A stretch of DNA of 20,588 nucleotides from a virus, in the IMG/VR virus record IMGVR_UViG_3300047564_003397, positions 1-20,588 of that record, one strand, 5' to 3'. Position 1 is the stretch's first letter; every line of letters starts with the position of its first letter. Position numbers and translations under genes: made by a program. The notes under the pieces were generated by a model. The model saw only the letters and a program-made list of their open reading frames with translations, did not search any database and had not been told where the DNA came from. This document shows positions 9,034-10,388 of this stretch, one piece after another.

Positions 9034-9110
9034 TTGGACACTACACCGAGAGAGTGTAGATTCCGAGTTGCTGTAGCAATACAGCCGTCCGTGTGGAAAC
9101 GGATGCCAAC
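9034..9110 (+). ncRNA. Candidate structured RNA: hairpin plus three-way junction
   Basis: Hairpin 1: TTGGA (9034-9038)/TCCGA (9062-9066), then CTACAC (9041-9046)/GTGTAG (9054-9059), loop CGAGAGA. Next, GTTG (9067-9070) pairs with CAAC (9107-9110) and encloses two hairpins. One is CTGTA-GCAA-TACAG (9071-9084), with a GNRA tetraloop. The other is CGTCCGT (9086-9092)/ACGGATG (9099-9105), loop GTGGAA. Only one unpaired C lies on either side of the last hairpin. Nearly every base is accounted for, which is unusual for random sequence. It is non-coding and lies upstream of the replication gene. It matches no RNA class I recognise; candidates are a cis-regulator, a small RNA or an origin-associated structure. 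Confidence 0.5.
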
Positions 9111-9137
9111 TGAAGATTAAATCGAAATATAAATATA

Positions 9138-9203
9138 TCACCTCTCCGCTACGGAATATTTCCACCCGACAATCAATCGGTCTTCAACCGTAGCGGGGGG
9201 TGG
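9138..9203 (+). promoter_or_regulatory. Long hairpin in the leader of the replication gene
   Basis: CCGCTACGG (9146-9154) pairs perfectly with CCGTAGCGG (9188-9196). The stem continues outward, with one bulged base, through TCACC/GGTGG to 9138 and 9203, about 16 pairs in all. The 33-base loop holds a smaller CCGA/TCGG hairpin (9166-9180). The 3' arm ends 12 bases before the ATG at 9215, so folding could hide the initiation region. The left arm and loop contain CTACGGAA and TTTCCACCC, words shared with the iterons inside the replication gene; the initiator may bind here and control itself. Confidence 0.5.
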
Positions 9204-9214
9204 CCCCTCTTAGT

Positions 9215-10114
9215 ATGGAATATAAAATTGAGCAATACGAACGATGCGAAACAATGCACGATGGAAGCATTGAAGATATACTGATCGGAGTTACGAAGCC
9301 ATCAATGGACAGGCTGCTCAAGATGCAAAGCCCCGGAGACTGCATTGCTCTGTATGCCTTTTATTGTTATGTGAGAAAATGGCAGAAGAACAGCAATGTG
9401 TTTGCCACCTCTGAGTATGCCATGAAAGCCTTAGACTGGGGAAGAGATAGGTTCTCAAGAGCAAAAAGCCAACTTGTAGAGGAGGGGTTTATTTCGGATG
9501 TAAAAGTTAGGACTGAAGAAAACCGAATAGATGGATGGTATGTAAAGGTTCGATACGCCATGAATTCCACCCTAGGGAAATTCCACACTACGGAAATCCC
9601 ACAGGGTGGAAAAACCTCAGACAAATACCCTTTAATGGTAAATGAAATACCTTTTAATGGTAAACAAATACAAGAGCGTGATGAAAAGAAGAAAGAATTG
9701 AAAGCCTCAAGCGAGGAATTTGATTCATTCTATTCCTCATACCCGAAGAAAGTAGCCAAGCCGAATGCACGGAAAGCATGGGACAAAAACAAGTGCAACC
9801 TAGATCAAGTTCTACCAGCCCTAGAGAAGCACAAGAAGACTTGGAACGATCCTCAATTTATTCCCCACCCTGCTACATGGCTTAACCAACGCAGATGGGA
9901 AGACGATGTTCTTGTTAAACAAGAATCATCCACACCGAAAGGCAGGATGACACCAGCAGAAGCAGTCAGACAAAACGGATGGACAGACGAGTTCTGGACA
10001 TGGCTCCATTCAACTATGGACAGAACGGATATTCAGCGCGACTACCTAACCACGGTAGAGGATCGTTGGCTAGTCGAGTTCATCGCATTCAAAAAAACCA
10101 ACGGATATTTTTAA
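9215..10114 (+). CDS. Phage replication initiator (O-like), carries origin in its gene
   Basis: A 299-residue protein. The N-terminal ~110 residues (PGDCIALYAFYCYVRKWQKN, YAMKALDWGRDRFSRAKSQL) look like the winged-helix domain of phage replication proteins. A low-complexity linker (~115-155) is encoded by the repeats described separately. Residues ~168-235 (FDSFYSSYPKKVAKPNARKAW, then PHPATWLNQRRWEDD) are the conserved Y-P-K-K...HPATWLN-RRWED module typical of phage replication proteins. It would bind the origin and recruit the host or phage helicase. ATG at 9215 is chosen over GTG 9200, which lies in the leader hairpin. No Shine-Dalgarno is evident. First main gene of the replication operon. 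Confidence 0.75.
   Translation: MEYKIEQYERCETMHDGSIEDILIGVTKPSMDRLLKMQSPGDCIALYAFYCYVRKWQKNSNVFATSEYAMKALDWGRDRFSRAKSQLVEEGFISDVKVRTEENRIDGWYVKVRYAMNSTLGKFHTTEIPQGGKTSDKYPLMVNEIPFNGKQIQERDEKKKELKASSEEFDSFYSSYPKKVAKPNARKAWDKNKCNLDQVLPALEKHKKTWNDPQFIPHPATWLNQRRWEDDVLVKQESSTPKGRMTPAEAVRQNGWTDEFWTWLHSTMDRTDIQRDYLTTVEDRWLVEFIAFKKTNGYF
9557..9620 (+). repeat. Tandem 16-bp iteron-like repeats (4 units)
   Basis: Units 9573-9588 (TAGGGAAATTCCACAC) and 9589-9604 (TACGGAAATCCCACAG) match at 13 of 16 positions. The flanking units 9557-9572 and 9605-9620 are more diverged (about 9-10 matches). A related word recurs in the leader hairpin at 9149-9167. Confidence 0.6.
9623..9666 (+). repeat. Tandem 22-bp A/T-rich direct repeat (2 units)
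   Basis: Units 9623-9644 and 9645-9666 share AAATACC and TTTAATGGTAAA and match at 19 of 22 positions; AAATAC begins a third partial copy. The copies are read in different frames (YPLMVN and IPFNGK), so they are not a protein repeat. Likely DNA-unwinding element of the origin. Confidence 0.65.
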
Positions 10115-10315: not shown

Positions 10316-10388
10316 GGGGATGTAGCTCAATGGTTAGAGCAGTCGGCTCATAACCGATTGGTTGGGGGTTCAAATCCCTCCGTCCCCA
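10316..10388 (+). tRNA. tRNA with CAU anticodon, probably tRNA-Ile2 (AUA)
   Basis: A complete cloverleaf of 73 bases: acceptor GGGGATG (10316-10322)/CGTCCCC (10381-10387) with discriminator A; D-arm AGCTC...GAGC; anticodon stem GTCGG/CCGAT around CTCATAA with CAT at 10349-10351; T-arm GGGGG-TTCAAAT-CCCTC. The 3' CCA is not encoded. G1-C72 pairing excludes an initiator tRNA. The short D-loop (CAATGGTTA) and TTGGTTG variable region resemble tRNA-Ile2, whose C34 is converted to lysidine by TilS to read AUA, more than elongator Met; this choice is less certain than the tRNA itself. Confidence 0.93.

Follow-up and report, generated by a model that had tools for sequence, protein, structure and literature searches.

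A structured, non-coding segment directly ahead of a phage replication gene raises the question of what kind of element it is and what it does for the gene that follows. The window considered here, meaning the whole stretch of 20,588 nucleotides that was analysed, is a 20.6-kb record from an uncultured phage, and an initial annotation placed a compact, branched RNA fold of no recognised class at positions 9034-9110. The claim of a compact fold stands: the predicted energy of this segment is -30.3 kcal/mol, as compared with -16.5 +/- 2.8 kcal/mol for 200 dinucleotide shuffles (z = -4.9), and none of the 200 folds as well. Comparison of the region with Rfam 15 gave no match up to E = 5, in agreement with the statement that no known RNA class was recognised. 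For eight loci of the classes I to IV defined below, Rfam 15 returned only sub-threshold similarities at chance level (e.g., RsaJ at 20.6 bits, against a gathering score of 100). A literature search for such a leader identified no paper.

The gene that follows (9215-10114, plus strand) encodes a replication initiator (phrog_270, E = 2e-22). It contains iteron-like repeats at 9563-9611 (TTCCACcctagGGAA and relatives), a layout shared with lambda O, where the repeats also lie inside the initiator gene. Analogous CCGCAAGNTGCGG repeats were observed in loci L094, L101 and L096. The repeats of both kinds are probably replication origins. In protein searches, two types of initiator N-terminus matched nothing, and the third had only distant wHTH/O-like matches. 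A DNA search of phage records for host and annotation gave no match except for a tRNA gene. In the window, a tRNA-Met (CAT) gene (10316-10388) lies directly 3' of the replication gene, and positions 440-2080 are taken up by a collagen-like gene, for a tail or fibre protein, that has long G-A-T-G repeats.

Distribution, gene context and promoter

Relatives of the leader precede initiator-type genes in more than 100 contigs of uncultured phages. At 12 loci with related initiators, conservation is unbroken from the stop codon of the upstream gene to the initiator ATG, and the upstream genes differ among these loci. A pattern of two invariant blocks found 23 stretches and a second pattern five more loci. 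The covariance model, trained on 17 pattern-found stretches, matched all 33 sources searched (the copy in L041 is cut by the contig end). When 96 loci were fetched via their initiator proteins, 70 gave strong model matches (E of at most 1e-7), all of which stop where the initiator begins. We distinguish four classes: class I is the type found in the window, classes II and III have other core sequences, and class IV is a shorter relative. The pattern for class II, which is diverged, found 106 stretches, and in 79 of the 80 that were readable an ATG comes 6-12 nt downstream of the element's terminal GCC. A strict helix parser failed on 16 of 80 class II loci; L160, which is among them, resembles a chance match.

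The leader element was absent from isolated-phage records and from the bacterial genomes scanned by pattern and by protein. The initiator genes of L066, L069, L078 and L081, though related, lack the leader; different sequence lies immediately 5' of them. Among the 18 long phage records tested, most contain one copy, a count in which the model trained on class I missed two class II records. Weak second model matches inside initiator genes proved to be repeats encoding IPQxA, not leader copies, and a third weak match in record G013 (24 bits) lies within coding sequence.

The element is found before several unrelated initiator N-termini and also before genes for small wHTH-like proteins; matches to replication-initiation PHROGs were obtained for several of the latter. 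The type of promoter and first hairpin (P1), the leader class and the gene type occur in many combinations; thus, we conclude that these are recombining modules. Record G013 encodes a second full leader body without promoter and P1 (L138:1635-1778, minus strand), directly before an HNH-endonuclease-like gene, and this copy shows the leader body to be portable. A class II element, in L190, also precedes an HNH gene.

Ahead of the leader we identified a -35 hexamer, TGGACA (9035-9040; TTGACA in most relatives), and a -10 hexamer, TAGATT (9057-9062), separated by a 16-nt spacer. TTGAC(A) with a weaker -10 hexamer at a spacing of 15-19 nt is present in nearly all of 66 distinct homologous upstream regions, and the promoter of L037 matches 11 of the 12 consensus bases. 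In these regions the predicted transcription start falls on or near the first base of the hairpin that carries a GCAA tetraloop in the window. Judged by this conservation, 9035-9062 is a sigma-70-like promoter, with a predicted start at about 9070. Dyads are frequent in the spacer, present in some promoter types only and different between types; that of the window (CTACAC...GTGTAG, 9041-9059) and its counterparts are probably operators.

This reading replaces the extended RNA hairpin that the initial annotation had drawn at 9034-9066. As RNA, the upstream region has a mean fold z of only -1.1 over the 66 regions (z < -2 in 19), and several relatives have no hairpin here. We therefore rejected the hairpin as a conserved RNA structure, in favour of a promoter whose spacer happens to contain a dyad. 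The GTTG/CAAC closing helix that had been proposed around the two following hairpins (9067-9070 with 9107-9110) is not kept in relatives; it shares a base with the GCAA hairpin, namely the first one of the latter, and part of it falls 5' of the predicted transcription start.

Fold of the leader RNA

The leader RNA, as delimited by comparison of homologues, is about 145 nt long (9070-9214) and reaches the initiator start codon at 9215. The extent first given, 9034-9110, was too short, since both conservation and structure continue to 9214. The two hairpins within it are present; they lie in non-coding sequence, on the same strand as the replication gene, and covary in homologues. The architecture built around them, one extended hairpin followed by a closed three-way branch, gives way to a knotted domain that extends to the start codon.

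The 5'-terminal hairpin P1 (GCTGTA-GCAA-TACAGC, 9070-9085) is predicted to begin at the transcription start. Its loop is of the GNRA type in 57 of 58 parsed relatives of classes I to III and in 63 of 64 parsed relatives of class II. P2 (CGTCCG-tGTGGAAA-CGGATG, 9086-9105) adjoins P1 directly and corresponds to the hairpin with a seven-pair stem seen earlier, whose loop turns out not to be free: GTGGAAA (9093-9099) is complementary to TTTCCAC (9159-9165), 60 nt downstream, and the two strands covary as the helix PK1. A mini-hairpin, P4 (CCGA-CAATCAA-TCGG, 9166-9180), follows; it also covaries, CCG/CGG becoming GCG/CGC and CTG/CAG in other classes. The helix P5 pairs TGAAGA (9111-9116) with TCTTCA (9181-9186) and is interleaved with P3, the closing helix of about 15 bp between CACCTCTCCGCTACGG (9139-9154) and CCGTAGCGGGGGGTG (9188-9202), which gives a second pseudoknot. 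The predicted leader is thus a multi-pseudoknot domain, with at least two pseudoknots. From P3 to the start codon runs a tail, GCCCCTCTTAGT (9203-9214). In loci of class II alone (L121, L101, L135 and others) we noticed, by eye only, a local hairpin in the 3' half of P3a (e.g., GGTGG-TAAT-CCACC), which excludes the upper part of P3 and resembles an alternative folding state.

Between P5 and P3 lies an A/U-rich joining strand (9117-9138) with near-invariant TTAAAT and ATATAT(C/G) motifs; a short pairing of this strand to the P4 loop is possible. The joining strand is near-invariant within a class, yet the core differs between classes, where a riboswitch is expected to have a strictly conserved ligand-binding core. 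No conserved reading frame is apparent by eye in the leader. The minus strand of the conserved linker has an extended -10-like motif (TGATATATT, 9132-9140), which could be an antisense promoter.

P1, P2, PK1, P5, P4 and P3 all covary strongly. In a MAFFT alignment built without structure, 97.4% of 573 cells are paired and 19 of 34 pairs have two-sided changes; shuffles gave 9.7 such pairs, with none of 500 reaching 19, and moving the partners by 1-3 columns left only 38-48% of cells paired. For four helices cut out of 35 distinct parsed sequences, taken from classes I to III, every one of the 735 cells is paired, with two-sided changes in 18 of 21 pairs. The helix counts are biased towards pairing for P5 (33 different helices) and P3 (35), which were found via a best-helix search, as they are for P1 and P2, which came from a parser that demands pairing. 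PK1 has an independent anchor, its 3' strand lying directly 5' of P4 in nearly every member. It is fully complementary in all 58 parsed relatives, as 12 distinct helices (variants include GTAGAAA/TTTCTAC, GTGAAGAA/TTCTTCAC, GTGAAGC/GCTTCAC and GTAGGAA/TTCCTAC), as compared with full pairing in only 10 of 106 combinations of swapped partners. In class IV the pairing of loop and strand is kept with other sequences (TAGAACC/GGTTCTA, TGATAC/GTATCA and TGAACC/GGTTCA). Homologous leaders thus carry strong compensatory covariation, which, along with the fold energy relative to shuffles, supports the initial view that the replication gene has a structured RNA of no recognised class in its leader. U-G occurs at the second position of P1 in 16 of 35 sequences and G-U in PK1 in 11 of 35. 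These pairs would be A-C mismatches on the other strand, so the functional molecule is the sense-strand RNA.

Possible modes of action

We consider it rather probable, from the comparative evidence, that the leader is a cis-acting 5' RNA through which the phage regulates expression of its replication initiator. Transcription would start at about 9070 from the promoter at 9035-9062, giving an mRNA that begins with the GNRA-capped P1, which probably protects the 5' end. The nascent RNA would then fold into the compact knotted domain, with the P2 loop paired to 9159-9165 and P5 formed across the P3 helix, a step that rests on covariation. P3, which is transcribed last, would also form last. Covariation bears on the helix itself; as for its effect, formation of P3 would be the OFF state. 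In many relatives the U-tract after P3 would then lead to attenuation of transcription, and in every class P3 covers the region needed by the ribosome, which would block translation. The pseudoknots would set how easily P3 forms. We propose that the balance may then be shifted by some factor of host or phage, or by how fast the RNA folds, so that the initiator would be provided at the right time or dose. As the main effect, attenuation of transcription is our tentative first choice, translational control is possible though somewhat doubtful, and a like share of doubt and possibility attaches to other roles taken together.

Attenuation is suggested by what follows P3. In class II the tail is GCC and U5-7, with 66 of 79 loci having U5 or longer; class IV has a U-rich run immediately 3' of P3, and both arrangements resemble intrinsic terminators. 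The other genes in the window have A-rich leaders without U runs, mostly free of Shine-Dalgarno sequences, so the U-tract is peculiar to this element, and P3 is therefore read as the OFF helix. A sense-strand terminator scan of the window and of L062 identified none, but the scan accepts only loops of 3-8 nt and is blind to P3. Attenuators of the pT181 type are driven by a countertranscript. A title cited in PMC10724649 names such a transcriptional attenuator of an initiator gene; the phage leader likewise has a terminator-like helix directly before an initiator gene, whereas there is no consistent evidence of a countertranscript for it.

The U-tract is weakest in class I, the window included (TCTT), and the main rival is therefore control at the level of translation, with a pseudoknotted fold 12 nt before the ATG promoting or blocking ribosome entry. 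The short distance from the end of P3 to the ATG (12 nt in the window, 9-15 nt in class II) is fixed in all classes, before many unrelated genes, and the 3' strand of P3 is purine-rich in most members, both of which argue for this reading. The U-tracts of classes II to IV fit a terminator better, and no Shine-Dalgarno sequence was identified at the usual spacing, nor do most genes of this phage have one. Sequestration of a Shine-Dalgarno sequence was rejected as a general mechanism, because the spacing is wrong and there are counter-examples: the G-rich P3 strand could not act as a Shine-Dalgarno sequence in L100 and L135 (GTGACC). Translational control as the main effect is thus conceivable, at well below even chances. 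In plasmid initiator leaders, the loop of a hairpin pairs with a strand near the start codon. Titles cited in PMC10724649 name such initiator-gene pseudoknot leaders for IncI-alpha (ColIb-P9 repZ), IncB and IncL/M (repA) plasmids. The phage leader shares with them a pseudoknot between a hairpin loop and a downstream strand in the leader of a replication initiator (all 58 parsed relatives have PK1, and 49 nt separate its 3' strand from the ATG in the window). It differs from them in its several interleaved helices, in sequence and layout and in belonging to phages, and we noticed no leader peptide gene and found no consistent antisense promoter. By analogy, it would work most like these plasmid leaders, with no membership among them implied.

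A phage counterpart is the operator of T4 gene 32, a 5' pseudoknot with A/U-rich RNA that lies 67 nt upstream of the start codon and is bound by the gene's own protein (PMC3014915). Like it, the leader described here is on the mRNA of a phage replication protein and has a 5' pseudoknot and A/U-rich RNA. Unlike it, the leader is conserved ahead of gene products that are not, and its fold lies right next to the start codon. Binding of the leader by the product of the downstream gene is unlikely, because the same leader class precedes unrelated N-terminal domains.

Readings other than a cis-acting leader fare less well. A stand-alone small RNA of about 145 nt, acting in trans from its own promoter and terminator and next to the initiator gene by chance, has in its favour the promoter at the 5' end and the terminator-like 3' end in classes II and IV. 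We regard it as improbable, given that a start codon always comes directly after the element and the gene it opens is nearly always of one functional type, that no unpaired seed is conserved (the P2 loop varies with its intramolecular partner), and that the class I terminator is weak. No better placed is a leader that, like those in the copy-number control of plasmids, is bound by an antisense RNA, with the A/U linker doubling as a promoter for the other strand. Of 51 distinct linkers, 25 have an extended -10-like motif in their minus strand, as compared with 3.8 expected from simple shuffling, but these motifs are at two different places and missing in half of the linkers, and full minus-strand promoters are present in only 15 of 58, scattered.

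The put RNA of HK022, about 70 nt long with two stem-loops, lacks a comparable pseudoknot domain, is present in two copies per phage and acts on RNA polymerase (PMC9378689). The leader resembles it in that an early phage transcript is predicted to open with two hairpins side by side. An antiterminator of this kind, which would modify the RNA polymerase as it enters the early operon, is very unlikely here: the hairpins are followed by a larger, conserved knotted domain that makes up most of the conserved part, the element is twice as long as put, its 3' end is formed by a helix with a U-tract, its position is tied to a start codon, and it occurs as a rule once per record, with one copy lacking P1 and promoter. 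Least probable is a DNA element, such as a replication origin or recombination site, which would suit a position at the replication gene, where modules recombine, but the GNRA loops and sense-strand G-U pairs point to RNA and the candidate origin is inside the initiator gene instead.

Meaning for phage replication control

Control of the start of phage replication is known mainly through proteins, namely repressors, antitermination factors and the dose of the initiator. A review from 2010 considered the pseudoknot of T4-type gene 32 as possibly the sole viral example in autoregulation of translation (PMC3014915). Described here is a strongly covarying, multi-pseudoknot RNA in more than 100 contigs of uncultured phages, absent from Rfam and from isolated-phage records. 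The modular, knotted leader might, as a more speculative possibility, be an undescribed switch of phage replication, a cassette exchangeable between promoters and initiator genes that would itself sense the state of the host or the infection through the equilibrium between P3 and the pseudoknots, and so time the start of genome replication. The variety of initiator genes that carry this leader suggests that the RNA serves as a general point of control in phage replication.
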